Positions 58,807 through 64,000 of a DNA stretch of 64,000 bases are shown piece after piece (position 1 is the stretch's first letter; the number at the start of each line of letters is the position of its first letter). Under the pieces are notes generated by a model. That model searched no databases. It was not told the DNA's origin and saw only the letters and a list, made by a program, of their open reading frames with translations. A program made the translations under genes and the position numbers. Source of the DNA: Sphingomicrobium sp. (lineage in GTDB: Bacteria > Pseudomonadota > Alphaproteobacteria > Sphingomonadales > Sphingomonadaceae); assembly GCA_036563485.1 (NCBI GenBank), contig DATCMI010000001.1:1241501-1305500 (forward strand), in the 5' to 3' direction.

Positions 58807-59925
58807 TCAGGCTCCGCGAATGAAACGCTCCAGCTCCGCGAAGGCTTCGTCGTCCGGCACCTGACGCGGCGGGTGCTTGCAGAAGGCGGTCGACGGCGCG
58901 TGGATCGGTCCGGCCATGCCGCGGTCGAGCGCGACGCGGGCGCAGCGGATCATGTCGATGGCGACGCCGGCGCTGTTGGGCGAATCCTCAACCGACAGGC
59001 GCATCTCCAGGTTCATCGGTACGCCGCCGAACAGCTGCCCTTCCATGCGCAGGAAGCAGACCTTGTTGTCGTTCTGCCAGGCGACATAGTCGCTTGGGCC
59101 GACGTGGATGTTCTCGTCGTCGAGGCGGCGGTGGGCGACGGACTGGACGGCTTCGGTCTTGCTGACCTTCTTCGACGCCAGGCGCGAGCGTTCGAGCATG
59201 TTGAGGAAGTCGGTATTGCCGCCGGTGTTGAGCTGATAGGTGCGGTCGAGCTTCACGCCGCGCTTCTTGAACAAATCGGTGAGCACGCGGTGGACGATAG
59301 TGGCGCCGAGCTGGGCCTTGATGTCGTCGCCGATGATCGGGACGCCGGCATCCTCGAAGCGCTTCGCCCAGGTCTCGTCGCTGCCGATGAAGACCGGCAT
59401 GCAATTGACGAACGCGACGCGGGCTTCGAGCGCGCATTCGGCGTAGAATTCGGTCGCCTGCTGCGATCCCACCGGGAGATAATTGACCAGCACGTCCGTG
59501 TCGGTCTCGCGCAGGACTTCAACGACCTCTTCCTTGGTCGGCTCGCGCTCCGCGTCGGCAAGCAGGAAGGTCCGCTCCTCGTGGAAGTTCGCCATATGGT
59601 CGGCGACACCGTCGAGCACCTTGCCCATGCGCACCTTGGCGCCCGTCTCGCCGACATGATCGCAGAAGACCGCCGTGCAATTGGGCGGTGCGAAGATCGC
59701 GTCGGCGACGTCCTTGCCGACCTTGCGGCTGTCGATGTCCCAGGCCGCGACTATCTTCAGATCCTTCGGCCGGTATCCGCCGAGGTCCCAGTGAGACAAA
59801 CCGATCTGCTCGTTGGCGCCGCCGTTCGAATAATGGGCGATGCCCTGCACCAGCGAGCTGGCGCAATTGCCGACGCCGACCAGGGCGACGTTGATGTCGG
59901 TACGTTTCGGGTCGTGAAGGCTCAT
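58807..59925 (-). CDS. ino1: Inositol-3-phosphate synthase (short, actinobacterial-type)
   Basis: A 372-residue NAD-dependent enzyme converting glucose 6-phosphate to inositol 3-phosphate. The NAD motif is 'VALVGVGNCASSLVQGIAHY' (~residue 13). 'LVNYLPVGSQQATEFYAECA', 'IGDDIKAQLGATIVHRVLTD' and 'YQLNTGGNTDFLNMLERSRL' are active-site signatures, with 'VAWQNDNKVCFLRMEGQLFG' near the C-terminus. The ~370-residue length matches the short bacterial form. Its ATG overlaps the stop of the glycoside hydrolase gene (ATGA), so the product is probably made together with that enzyme and the methyltransferase. Confidence 0.94.
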   Translation of the reverse strand: MSLHDPKRTDINVALVGVGNCASSLVQGIAHYSNGGANEQIGLSHWDLGGYRPKDLKIVAAWDIDSRKVGKDVADAIFAPPNCTAVFCDHVGETGAKVRMGKVLDGVADHMANFHEERTFLLADAEREPTKEEVVEVLRETDTDVLVNYLPVGSQQATEFYAECALEARVAFVNCMPVFIGSDETWAKRFEDAGVPIIGDDIKAQLGATIVHRVLTDLFKKRGVKLDRTYQLNTGGNTDFLNMLERSRLASKKVSKTEAVQSVAHRRLDDENIHVGPSDYVAWQNDNKVCFLRMEGQLFGGVPMNLEMRLSVEDSPNSAGVAIDMIRCARVALDRGMAGPIHAPSTAFCKHPPRQVPDDEAFAELERFIRGA

Positions 59926-60935
59926 GCGGCGTTCCGTTCGGCGGCGAGGCGTTCGTCGCGGTTGAAGTGCAAGGGCGAAAGCTCCGGGGCTTGAACCTCG
60001 ACCCCCTCAGGCAGTTGCGGCGCGGCGACCCTGCTGTTGCTGTTGGCTGGCGCGTAGCGGTCGATCATCCACGCGCAGAAGTCCGCAAATGCCTGCGGGT
60101 CCCTGGCGGGACTGGTGTGGTGCGGGGCGATGCCGAGATGCTCGGGCGTGAAGCAGAAGGTGACGGTCACGTCGAAATCTTCGAGCGCGCCCATCATCCG
60201 GTCGAACCAATCGACCGCATTGGGGCGGAAGCTGTCCGCCCAGCTGAGCCCGGTGCGGATGCGCCGCGTGCCCAGCCGCTTCATCGTCGCGACCGCTTCG
60301 TCGAGCCGCGGGTCGTGAAAGTGGAACCACTGCATCAGACCGATGTCGGCGGCGTGCTTGGCATAGATGTCGAGCGCCGGCTTGGGCGTGCCGTCCTCGC
60401 GGATCAGGCCGAGGTAGAAATGGCGGTAATAAGACGAACCCTCCGCCTCGCGGTGGCGGGTTTCCGCGCCCCAGCTCTGCGGCAGGTCGAACAGCGAATA
60501 CCAGAAGACGCGCGGGACGCCCGCGGCCTTCAGGAGCTCGATCGTGCGCTCGATCCCGAATGCCTGCACCTCTTCGGCGCCGAAGCTGCTGACGCCCACT
60601 TCGGTGACCCACACGGGCTTGTCGGTGACGGCCTTGATCTCCGCGATCTTGTCGGGCCAGGCGCTGAGCGGCCACAGGTTCCAATCGAGCGGGAAACCAT
60701 GAACGGCGACCACGTCGACCGCGTCGAGCGCGCCGTGCCGTTCCATCCGCCGCAGCCAGTGGGTGTCGATCGGCGACATGCCGCCAAGCACCCGCGTCAT
60801 TGCCGGATTGACGCTGCGGATCGCTTTGCCGGCCGCGATCACATGATCCGCGAACATCCGCCACTCGGGGTCGATCTCCGGGTCCCAGTGCGACTTGTTG
60901 TTCGGCTCGTTCCAGATCATCGCCGCTTCGATCAT
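59922..60935 (-). CDS. Clan GH-A-like glycoside hydrolase with permuted barrel order
   Basis: A 337-residue protein without signal peptide. The acid/base motif comes first (IWNEPNNKSHW, Glu10), the likely nucleophile is Glu112 in 'KPVWVTEVGVSSFG', and barrel sequence runs on to ~195. Residues ~196-297 (IGLMQWFHFHDPRLDEAVAT, 'LGTRRIRTGLSWADSFRPNA', 'FDVTVTFCFTPEHLGIAPHH') look like the first three beta-alpha units that normally precede WNEPN. The barrel therefore seems circularly permuted. GH39/beta-xylosidase-like proteins are nearest by eye; the substrate is unknown. ATGA overlaps join it to both neighbours. The start at 60935 is set by the overlap. Confidence 0.72.
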   Translation of the reverse strand: MIEAAMIWNEPNNKSHWDPEIDPEWRMFADHVIAAGKAIRSVNPAMTRVLGGMSPIDTHWLRRMERHGALDAVDVVAVHGFPLDWNLWPLSAWPDKIAEIKAVTDKPVWVTEVGVSSFGAEEVQAFGIERTIELLKAAGVPRVFWYSLFDLPQSWGAETRHREAEGSSYYRHFYLGLIREDGTPKPALDIYAKHAADIGLMQWFHFHDPRLDEAVATMKRLGTRRIRTGLSWADSFRPNAVDWFDRMMGALEDFDVTVTFCFTPEHLGIAPHHTSPARDPQAFADFCAWMIDRYAPANSNSRVAAPQLPEGVEVQAPELSPLHFNRDERLAAERNAA

Positions 60936-61726
60936 GCGGCATTCCCCTTGGCCGGATAGACGGCCGCTGGACCGTACTGCGCGTATGGCCGGTCCGCGAC
61001 GCGGCAGAGATAGACTTCCTCTTCGATGCGGCTGTCGATGGAGAAGCCCGATGCGCGAAGCATCGCCTCGGTGCAGGCGCGGTTCGGCGCCCACCAATTG
61101 GTCCAGTCGTGGGAATATTGCCGCTCGATGAAGTGCAGCTTGGGATAGCCGGATTCGAAGAACATCTCGGTGTCGGTGAACTCGTAATCCTCTTTCAGCT
61201 CCAGAACCTGCTTCGATCCGCGCTGCATCGACTGGAACAGCATCAAATCCTTGGCGACGTGCTCGCGAATGAGGTCGAGCGCGAGCAAGGGGTGACGGAG
61301 GTGGTAGAGAACCCCCATGAAAATGACGAAGTCGAACTTCTCGCCGATCGCGCCGACTTCGTAGACGTCCATCTTCGCAAATTCGATGTCGGCGAAGCCG
61401 AGCGTCTCGGTCGCGAGCCGGGCCTGGGCGAGATAGCGGTCATCGCTGTCGATACCGAACACGCGGCTGGCACCGCGCCGCTTCATCTCGATCGAGTAGA
61501 AACCGGCGTTGCAGCCGATGTCGAGCACGCTCTTGCCAGACATATCCTCCGGCAGGTGCGGTGCGAACCTCTTGAACTTCGATCCCGGATAGTCGCCCAG
61601 GAAATGATCGGGCGCGGTCCACACGCCGTGCAGGTTCATGTTGTGGAACCAGGGCGCGAGCTCGTCGATGCGCCGCTTCAGATCGCGGTCGGCAACAGGT
61701 TCGATCCTTCGCTCAGCGACGTTCAT
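60932..61726 (-). CDS. SAM-dependent methyltransferase, CmoB/DUF1698-like (TIGR04290 type)
   Basis: A 264-residue class I methyltransferase. SAM motif I is 'VLDIGCNAGFYSIEMKRRG' (residues ~68-86), the acidic loop is 'VFGIDSDDRYLAQARLA', and post-motif 'FDFVIFMGVLYHLRHPLLAL' is very like the tRNA-modifying CmoB family. 'NLHGVWTAPDHFLGDYPGSK' precedes the domain. It resembles a CmoB-like family (recalled as TIGR04290) found beside sugar genes rather than tRNA genes. It is the first gene of the leftward unit with the permuted hydrolase and ino1; the real substrate is unknown. Confidence 0.8.
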   Translation of the reverse strand: MNVAERRIEPVADRDLKRRIDELAPWFHNMNLHGVWTAPDHFLGDYPGSKFKRFAPHLPEDMSGKSVLDIGCNAGFYSIEMKRRGASRVFGIDSDDRYLAQARLATETLGFADIEFAKMDVYEVGAIGEKFDFVIFMGVLYHLRHPLLALDLIREHVAKDLMLFQSMQRGSKQVLELKEDYEFTDTEMFFESGYPKLHFIERQYSHDWTNWWAPNRACTEAMLRASGFSIDSRIEEEVYLCRVADRPYAQYGPAAVYPAKGNAA

Positions 61727-61885: not shown

Positions 61886-62440
61886 ATGGCGGATGGACAA
61901 AAGGCGGTAGGGGGTGCGGCCGCGCAAGAGGCGCCTTGGGAAGCCGATGTCAGCTGGCTGACGGACGATGTGGCGCTCGGCGGCTGCTTCCCGATGGAAC
62001 GCGCCGACCATCTCGCGCGGGAGCACGGCATCGGCGCTGTCGTCGACCTGCGCAAGGAAGACCGGGACGATGAGGAGCGGCTTGACGCCGCGGGAATCCG
62101 CTTCCTGCACCTGCCGACCCCGGACCTGGAACCAGTGACGGTCGAAATGCTCGACGAAGGCGTCCGCTTCACGCGCGCGCACACGGACGCGGGCATCAAG
62201 GTGCTGATCCACTGCCAGCACGGGATCGGCCGCTCGGCCCTGCTGGCGCTGTGCGTGCTGGTCGACCGCGGATGGGAGCCGCTCGACGCGCTCAACCATG
62301 CCAAGGACAGGCGCTGGCGCGTGTCGCCGAGCCGCTCGCAATATGAGGGCTGGGCGCGCTGGCTCGCCTCGCGCGGCAAGCAGGCGCCCGATTACCACAC
62401 GTTCGGCTGCATCGCTTACCGTCACCTCGCCGGGCAGTAG
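61886..62440 (+). CDS. Dual-specificity/tyrosine-type protein phosphatase family
   Basis: A 184-residue cytosolic protein. The Cys-based phosphatase signature HCxxGxxR is 'LIHCQHGIGRSALLALCVLV' with Cys110 and Arg116. The likely general acid is Asp80 in 'LHLPTPDLEPVT', and the N-terminal 'GAVVDLRKEDRDDEER' fits DSP folds. The target may be a phosphoprotein, an inositol phosphate or a phospholipid; the sequence does not say. It diverges from the methyltransferase gene and is followed at once by the long PRTase/kinase-like frame. The ATG at 61886 is chosen because upstream frame sequence looks non-coding. Confidence 0.82.
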   Translation: MADGQKAVGGAAAQEAPWEADVSWLTDDVALGGCFPMERADHLAREHGIGAVVDLRKEDRDDEERLDAAGIRFLHLPTPDLEPVTVEMLDEGVRFTRAHTDAGIKVLIHCQHGIGRSALLALCVLVDRGWEPLDALNHAKDRRWRVSPSRSQYEGWARWLASRGKQAPDYHTFGCIAYRHLAGQ

Positions 62441-62447
62441 CGCGCGG

Positions 62448-64000
62448 GTGCTGGTCTACGGGGATCATGAAGAGCGCGCGGGCCCGCGCCGCCTGACTGC
62501 GGAAATCAACGCGCGCCTCGATGCAGTGGCGGCCATGCCGGCGGGCATCGGGCGGCATGCCGCGCTGGTCGCTGCGCTGATCGACGCCGGGCAGCTGCAG
62601 CAGGGCATCGCCGACCATTTGTTTGCCGAGGCCCGAAAGTGCGATCGCAAGCACCCGCTGGTCGAGGACCTCGGGGCCGCATTGCTGCAGCTTGGCCGCG
62701 CCGTGTGCCGATCCTGGGACAGCGGGTTTACGGAAGTGGGGGCGCTGCCGCGCTTCGACGTCGGCAACGGCGCGCCGGATGAGGTCACCATCCGCGTGCC
62801 CGAGGGGTTCGCCTTCTACGCGCTCTACCCGGAAGCTTATGCGGATGCGGCGCGGCGGCTCGACCTTGCGGCGCCGCCGCGGGTGATCGGGTTGCGCAGC
62901 ATCGGGACCAGCTTAGCCGCCGTCGTCGCCGCAGCACTGGGTGCGCCGCCGCCGGTCAGCGTCAGGCCGTTTGGGCACCCGGCGGAGCGTGAGATCGACA
63001 TCGACGAGTGCCTGGCCCGCGAGTTGCTGGACGGCGAGGCGCACTATGTGATCGTCGACGAGGGGCCGGGGCAGTCGGGCAGCTCCTTCGCCGCCGTCGC
63101 CCGCTGGTTGCGGGAGCGCGGGGTAAGCGACGAGCGGGTTGCGCTGCTTCCCAGCCATGCGGGGTCGCCGGGCGCGGCAGCGACGGACGAGCGGCGACGC
63201 TGGTGGCGCAGCACGCAGCGGCAGGTGGCCGACCATGGCGACAGGCTTGGCGAGCTGGCCGGCGAATGGGCGGCGAGCCTGGTCGGACCCCTGGACGGCC
63301 CCGCGCGTGAGATCACCGGCGGTGGCCCATGGGAGCGGCGCAAGTTCCTCGTCGCCGCCAACGGGGAGCGCTTCTTGATCAAGTTCGCCGGCCTCGGCGC
63401 GATCGGGGAGGCAAAGCTCGCCATTGCCCGGGCGCTGCACGTCGATCGCCTGAACGCCGAGCCCGTTGGACTTGTGCACGGCTTCCTCATCGAACGCTGT
63501 TGCGAGGGAGCGCCCCTGGCACGCGGAGAAAAGCCGATCGGCGAAATCGCACGCTACATCGGCACCCGCGCTCGGCTGCTCCCGGCGATGCGGGAGAGCG
63601 GCGCAAGTATCGAGCTCCTGCTGACGATGGTGCGCCGGAACCTATCCTTGGAGTTCGGCGATAGGTTCGAGGCCGCGACCGACCGCTTCGAACCGGCGGA
63701 ACTCGAAAGGCGCGTGGTGCGCGTCTGCACCGACAACAAGCTCCAGCCGCACGAATGGCTGAGGACGCCTGACGGGCGCCTGCTCAAGGTGGATGCGCTG
63801 GATCATCATCGCGCGCATGACCTGATCGGCTGCCAGGACTTTGCGTGGGACGTCGCCGGCGCGATCGTCGAGTTCGGTCTGAGCGAAAGCGAGGCGGCAA
63901 GGCTGATCGAAGCCGCCGAGGAACAAGCGTTCCGGTCGGTCGATTCGCAGCTGCTCGACTTCTATCGTCTTGCCTATCTCGCATTCCGGGTCGGGCAGGC
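62448..64000 (+). CDS. Large protein with phosphoribosyltransferase-like and APH/kinase-like parts (3' end outside window)
   Basis: Translation from 62448 stays open to the window end (517 codons so far). Residues ~125-235 resemble a type I phosphoribosyltransferase: 'RVIGLRSIGTSLAAVVAAAL' then 'HYVIVDEGPGQSGSSFAAVA' (Asp204-Phe214, a PRPP-loop-like motif). From ~295 the pattern suggests an APH-like kinase: Lys312 in 'RFLIKFAGLG', 'HGFLIERCCEGAPL', then Asp429 in 'CTDNKLQPHEWL' and Asp449 in 'LLKVDALDHH'. The N-terminal ~120 residues are unassigned. The GTG start is tentative with no ribosome site seen; the frame stays open upstream into the phosphatase gene. I know of no named family with this order. 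Domain calls are by eye. Confidence 0.62.
   Translation, partial: MLVYGDHEERAGPRRLTAEINARLDAVAAMPAGIGRHAALVAALIDAGQLQQGIADHLFAEARKCDRKHPLVEDLGAALLQLGRAVCRSWDSGFTEVGALPRFDVGNGAPDEVTIRVPEGFAFYALYPEAYADAARRLDLAAPPRVIGLRSIGTSLAAVVAAALGAPPPVSVRPFGHPAEREIDIDECLARELLDGEAHYVIVDEGPGQSGSSFAAVARWLRERGVSDERVALLPSHAGSPGAAATDERRRWWRSTQRQVADHGDRLGELAGEWAASLVGPLDGPAREITGGGPWERRKFLVAANGERFLIKFAGLGAIGEAKLAIARALHVDRLNAEPVGLVHGFLIERCCEGAPLARGEKPIGEIARYIGTRARLLPAMRESGASIELLLTMVRRNLSLEFGDRFEAATDRFEPAELERRVVRVCTDNKLQPHEWLRTPDGRLLKVDALDHHRAHDLIGCQDFAWDVAGAIVEFGLSESEAARLIEAAEEQAFRSVDSQLLDFYRLAYLAFRVGQ

Follow-up and report, generated by a model that had tools for sequence, protein, structure and literature searches.

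A bacterial protein family combining PRTase-like and kinase-like folds, and its co-occurrence with a TIGR04290-marked gene cassette

The window, a 64,000-nucleotide stretch of Sphingomicrobium DNA, ends within a gene (62448..64000, + strand) which raises the question of whether the fold of a type I phosphoribosyltransferase (PRTase) and that of a choline-kinase/APH-like phosphotransferase are joined in a single chain and, if so, what such a protein might do. The gene continues outside the window, its end lying at window coordinate 64139 in the surrounding genome, and encodes 563 amino acids, 517 of them inside the window. The open frame, the GTG codon at 62448, the 7-bp gap to the stop of the upstream phosphatase gene and the peptide HYVIVDEGPGQSGSSF are all as read in an earlier note on this DNA. 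The GTG is probably the correct start, since 79 of 80 related loci can be aligned from residue 1 or 3 onwards and carry an ATG or GTG at that point; the exception, L029, aligns only from residue 26.

A protein family without a name

No family name was obtained for the fusion protein from Pfam, NCBIfam, PADLOC or PHROGs, its sole sub-threshold Pfam match being DUF732 (E 0.36), and sequence searches of the PDB with it gave nothing meaningful. Pfam scans of 17 family members yielded seven families at E<=1, each in one member only; neither PF00156 nor any other PRTase model was among them, and no APH or choline-kinase model matched these members or the window protein, which is also without an NCBIfam match. 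The product name of the relatives is 'hypothetical protein' wherever seen, many plasmid entries being without annotation.

Relatives are nonetheless numerous, 346 having turned up when bacterial and archaeal genomes were scanned. The fusion forms a protein family, as yet unnamed, that is widely conserved in bacteria and has hundreds of members, most of them from Alphaproteobacteria of environmental or plant-associated origin and from Sinorhizobium plasmids. The two halves lie in one frame in each of the best 80 of the 346, a ranking that favours full-length matches; in a less biased set, the 90 plasmid records with relatives, at least 80% of the query is covered in 89. Within the organism's own family 7 of 199 genomes carry the fusion, and within the phylum sample 9 of 398, or 8 of 398 after leaving out G543, whose match (L022; 113 residues at 36%, within a frame of 259 aa) was judged to be chance. 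As regards free-standing halves, separate profiles of each half match the same 3 of 337 genomes of the class, matches so few as to make this a weak test. Among viral contigs no relative turned up with the patterns used, and matches of the N-terminal half to BFVD were not significant; a viral origin was accordingly set aside.

Three partial matches may be recorded here. A Comamonadaceae plasmid (L186:8001-8285) carries an 88-codon gene matching the C-terminal 17%, either a relic or chance. In one draft genome (G663:C108:27732-28655; L189, L190 and L192) a fusion relative has its kinase half divided among several reading frames, through frameshifts or decay of the gene. Just downstream of a full fusion at G685:C589, a second, convergent match to the kinase half (L191, 4760-4933, - strand) falls in a 462-aa frame and is possibly a second copy.

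Two folds in one chain

The structural reading was based on AlphaFold models covering 517 of the 563 residues, with 79 relatives as alignment. The resulting mean pLDDT was 93.8 and pTM 0.92 for the 517-residue window part, while the first 262 residues alone gave values of 94.6 and 0.93. In the models an N-terminal region of three long helices (residues 1-112, 62448..62783, +) precedes a type I PRTase-like core (residues ~113-262, 62784..63233, +), assigned through fold searches, and this is followed by a choline-kinase/APH-like domain of protein-kinase-like (PKL) fold (residues ~262-517 in the window and continuing outside it, 63234..64000, +). Since the predicted structures show both folds, the earlier note's reading of the protein as a fusion is right; at the level of these models the fusion is real, its PRTase half carrying less statistical weight. 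The same check gave no preference for the HGPRT/ComF-like membership that had been expected, the matches being spread over APRT, UPRT, OPRT, XPRT, PyrR and PRPP synthetase.

For the PRTase half, 46 of the 50 VIA matches listed are by name PRTases, PyrR or PRPP synthetases (counting Fur1p), the other four having uninformative names. The top match is a PRPP synthetase, with a Z of 8.9 (2.6 Å over 120 residues), followed by APRT (8.3), UPRT and OPRT (both 8.1) and PyrR (7.9), the matches listed spanning 7.1-8.9; just 6 of 1000 chains reach a Z of 8 and, as the tool itself warns, values below 8 may reflect a common structural arrangement. The best Foldseek match is UPRT (E 2.2e-3), and 14 of the 50 Foldseek matches listed are eIF2B, ribose-bisphosphate isomerase or aminotransferase, at probabilities of 0.47 or less. 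When the profiles of the two halves were compared by hhalign with 24 APH and 12 PRTase proteins no pairing gave a significant match: the PRTase half scored a probability of 0.2% against the 12 local PRTases, and an equally insignificant but higher 12.6% against the 24 APH kinases. The non-significant alignment to PRTases still pairs the PRPP loops.

Conservation was measured over 80-row alignments comprising the window and 79 of the 80 loci (A2 and A3, L029 omitted), a further alignment (A4) holding the window and 37 of the 80. The segment that the earlier note likened to a PRPP loop, D204-E-G-P-G-x-S-G-S-S213 (63057..63086, +), proved strongly conserved: D204, G206-P207-G208 and G211-S212-S213 are found in 80/80 rows and E205 in 79/80. 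The acidic pair and Gly/Ser-Thr loop following a hydrophobic strand are thus present, the loop DEGPGLSGSS being, presumably, one residue longer than the usual PRPP motif. Upstream, R150-S-I-G153 (62895..62906, +; R and G 80/80) is taken here to be the equivalent of the PPi loop, on the strength of known PRTase motifs and the non-significant profile alignment. Between the two lies a loop R173-P174-x-G-H-P178-x-x-R181 (62964..62990, +) in which R173, P174, P178 and R181 are each 80/80. E119, Y124, P128, E129, H237 and G242 are also invariant.

The PKL half matches several kinases in fold. Foldseek places the choline kinase LicA first (E 1.8e-9), and VIA gives Z values of 17.1 for LicA (4.6 Å over 233 residues), 15.7 for CcrZ (3.2 Å over 213), 15.6 for glucosamine kinase (3.4 Å over 239) and 15.0 for maltokinase (3.8 Å over 247), with aminoglycoside kinases matching after these. 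The motifs that the earlier note had cited in favour of a kinase fared unevenly. Two of them hold: the residue of the lysine strand, K312, is Lys in 75 rows and Arg in 5, and the late Asp, D449, is found in 80/80. The proposed D-N-x4-H loop dissolves on alignment: although D429 never varies, Asn occupies position 430 in 62/80, and at position 435 Trp (69/80) far outnumbers His (7/80). With neither N nor H conserved, that pattern was rejected as the catalytic loop in favour of D429-x-[R/K]431-x4-E436, which in the window reads D429-x-K431-x4-E436 (63732..63755, +) and, judged by its spacing, takes the place of the H-x-D-x4-N of ordinary kinases. It is followed by K447-x-D449 (63786..63794, +), both residues invariant, in which D449 is the equivalent of the DFG Asp.

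Across the 80 aligned sequences, Arg (75) or Lys (5) would thus stand in place of the Brenner Asp (431), Glu (78) or Lys (2) in place of the HxDxxxxN Asn (436), and Asp (all 80) in place of the His (429). This mapping rests on the spacing back from D449, on the 24 local APH proteins, themselves selected by the HxDxxxxN motif, and on the model strands 437-439 and 445-447. E436 and D449 stand 13 residues apart in 60 rows and 12 apart in 20; of the 24 APH proteins, 7 have a corresponding Asn-to-DFG spacing of 13 and 12 one of 15. The alternative of taking D429 itself as the Brenner Asp was rejected, since the Asn place would then fall at 434 and, 13 residues further on, K447 would occupy the DFG place. 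D429, K447, D452, H453, H457, D458, Q463 and W467 are invariant in the kinase half.

Thus the fold claimed earlier for this half stands, while the case for kinase activity becomes weaker: with the metal-binding Asp kept and the Brenner Asp replaced by Arg or Lys in 80/80, ordinary kinase activity is, as judged from sequence, doubtful. In CcrZ, alanine at the Brenner Asp, D166, is reported to abolish an ATPase activity that ribose stimulates (PMC9135335). Given the replacement of the Brenner Asp here and the need for D166 in CcrZ, the kinase half is either atypical or a pseudokinase.

The surrounding gene cassette

Directly upstream of the fusion, across the 7-bp gap, lies a gene for a dual-specificity phosphatase bearing HCQHGIGRS (61886..62440, +, predicted start). 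Beyond it, on the opposite strand, are a TIGR04290 methyltransferase, which we use as the cassette marker (60932..61726, -; 377.9 bits against a cut-off of 300), the catalytic core of a glycosyl hydrolase (59922..60935, -, predicted start), given as beta-xylosidase in the annotation of relatives, and inositol-phosphate synthase (INO1; 58807..59925, -), which passes the Pfam cut-off and falls short of the NCBIfam one for the mycothiol-type model. On the strand of the fusion itself lie the phosphatase, epimerases and glycosyltransferases of the window cassette. Just past the window, at L002:13223-15334 (+), a single 703-aa frame holds a CgeB-like glycosyltransferase (residues 199-342) together with an NAD-dependent epimerase (371-675), which in annotated relatives are separate genes.

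The composition of the cassette was assessed over 80 loci (the best of 346) taken with at most 10 kb of flanking DNA, 63 of the loci being more than 21 kb long. INO1 was found in 46 of them, the glycosyl hydrolase (GH) and a histidine phosphatase in 41 each, SDR1, SDR2 and SDR3 in 39, 38 and 28, glycosyltransferases in 36-38, TIGR04290 in 34, Gfo/Idh in 31, a Zn-dehydrogenase in 30, a radical SAM protein in 12 and the dual-specificity phosphatase in 9. The nearest cassette gene upstream on the same strand, within 300 bp, is SDR3 in 12 loci, the dual-specificity phosphatase in 7 (spacing -1 to 13 bp), a glycosyltransferase in 6 and GH in 5, while 50 have none. The suggestion made from the 7-bp spacing, that kinase and phosphatase activities oppose one another, is therefore not supported for the family in general: the dual-specificity phosphatase is present in 9/80 loci only, so that the pair was rejected as a conserved unit, and the more frequent phosphatase (41/80) is of the histidine type.

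In 26 of the 80 loci at most one core cassette gene lies within reach. Each of the 26 genomes concerned nevertheless carries TIGR04290 above its cut-off, whereas none of 14 control genomes does. In 13 of the 26 its coordinates fall 0.6-2.5 kb outside the fetched stretch, the same contig being assumed, and about half of these cassette-poor loci are therefore probably linked to TIGR04290. In the family sample (199 genomes) TIGR04290 occurs over the cut-off in 26, the fusion in 7 and both in 6; in the phylum sample (398 genomes, G543 dropped) the figures are 14, 8 and 8. The corresponding hypergeometric values of 1.8e-5 and 2.1e-13 are inflated by the relatedness of the genomes and the inclusion of the window genome in both samples, and are not true probabilities. 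The exception in the family sample, G063, is a draft genome with the fusion and without TIGR04290 over the cut-off, its fusion lying on a 4.7-kb contig (C63, L005). A further record, L045, to judge by its length probably that same contig, carries other cassette genes.

The converse does not hold: 20 of the 26 TIGR04290-positive family genomes have no fusion. Sixteen of these 20 fusion-free TIGR04290 regions hold INO1 and several of the cassette glycosyltransferases, from which it follows that the fusion enzyme is dispensable for the core product of the cassette. Three profiles found no relative of either half, split or whole, in the 20 regions; as a control the same profiles matched 80/80 loci with both halves in one frame, most of these loci having been used to build them. 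Nor did a simple gene caller, which also called antisense frames, reveal any consistent replacement gene.

Possible roles and relation to known systems

The cassette appears to build an inositol-containing sugar compound, and our preferred reading, held tentatively and with rather less than even confidence, is that the fusion is an optional biosynthetic enzyme of the glycan cassette whose markers are TIGR04290 and inositol-phosphate synthase. It draws on the two folds, the conserved residues resembling a PRPP site, the altered loop, the constancy with which the halves occur together and the co-occurrence with the cassette. The PRTase half would use PRPP to phosphoribosylate a cyclitol or sugar that the cassette produces, and a cassette phosphatase would then take off the phosphate; the PKL half may bind Mg-ATP through K312, E436 and D449, and would either perform an atypical transfer or position the substrate. 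Weighing against this optional enzyme are the modest PRTase match, the missing Brenner Asp and the 20/26 TIGR04290 genomes without the fusion. A more ambitious version, somewhat unlikely in our view, is a new bifunctional class in which an undescribed PRTase family and an atypical PKL phosphotransferase (D429, R/K431, E436, D449), devoid of a Brenner Asp and stably fused to it, would jointly install a phosphoribosyl-type modification on a glycan or natural product based on inositol.

Some PRTase folds serve as sensors, as in PyrR, and PyrR is among the best structural matches of the PRTase half. Together with the optional presence of the fusion in cassettes, this would fit a regulatory protein whose PRTase half acts as a sensor of PRPP (or of a nucleotide) and governs the kinase-like half or the cassette, no ribose being transferred; yet the many residues invariant beyond the PRPP loop (E119, Y124, P128, E129, R173, P174, P178, R181, H237 and G242) suggest a dedicated substrate site, and we regard a regulator as unlikely. 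Of comparably low probability is a catalytically dead PKL half serving as a scaffold that holds substrate or partner for the PRTase half: Arg or Lys at the Brenner Asp place and Glu or Lys at the Asn place, both in 80/80, speak for it, whereas K312, D449 and the invariant polar D429, K447, D452, H453, H457, D458 and Q463 suggest chemistry or at least ATP binding. An ordinary APH-type kinase joined to a PRTase and opposed by the neighbouring phosphatase would account for the PKL fold, the 7-bp spacing in the window and the 7/80 loci where the phosphatase is nearest upstream, but is very unlikely given a catalytic Asp missing in 80/80 and a dual-specificity phosphatase in only 9/80 loci. Finally, the N-terminal half could be some other Rossmann-like fold bearing a chance resemblance, as the lack of PRTase profile matches (Pfam, PDB; 0.2% in hhalign) and the middling structural Z of 7-9 would allow. 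We consider this highly improbable in view of the high-confidence model, the 46 PRTase-superfamily names among the 50 VIA matches listed, the motif at its expected place and the pairing of PRPP loops even in the insignificant hhalign alignment.

The family is of wider interest: an unnamed group of hundreds of proteins is tied to an uncharacterised inositol-glycan cassette, and makes testable both whether that pathway includes a PRPP-dependent step and what role is played by a kinase fold whose catalytic Asp has given way to Arg or Lys. No description of the fusion, of the cassette or of TIGR04290/TIGR04295 was found in an open-access collection, which leaves out most subscription journals.

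Comparison with known systems places each half among familiar proteins. Residues ~262-517 share the fold of LicA and other choline kinases, CcrZ, glucosamine kinase and maltokinase, along with the beta3-type Lys and DFG-type Asp, but differ in having DxRxxxxE for HxDxxxxN, in an identity of 13-17% to these four and in the attached PRTase-like half. Residues ~120-262 resemble the core fold of the type I PRTases (APRT, UPRT, OPRT, XPRT and PyrR) and of PRPP synthetase, with the acidic pair and Gly/Ser loop, and are set apart by the conserved RPxGHPFxR loop, the extra helical N-terminus and the lack of a PF00156 match. Inositol polyphosphate kinases bear a PxxxDxKxG motif, and their D-x-K/R pattern in a PKL-type fold may be analogous to the loop of the fusion, fold and sequence searches giving no match. 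In butirosin biosynthesis (BtrL/BtrP) an O-ribosylation that depends on PRPP precedes a phosphatase step; the fusion and its cassette would, again by analogy, share this logic of phosphoribosyl transfer to a cyclitol-type acceptor and subsequent dephosphorylation. Both folds are already known; what seems new is the fusion of PRTase-like and PKL halves, with its altered loop.
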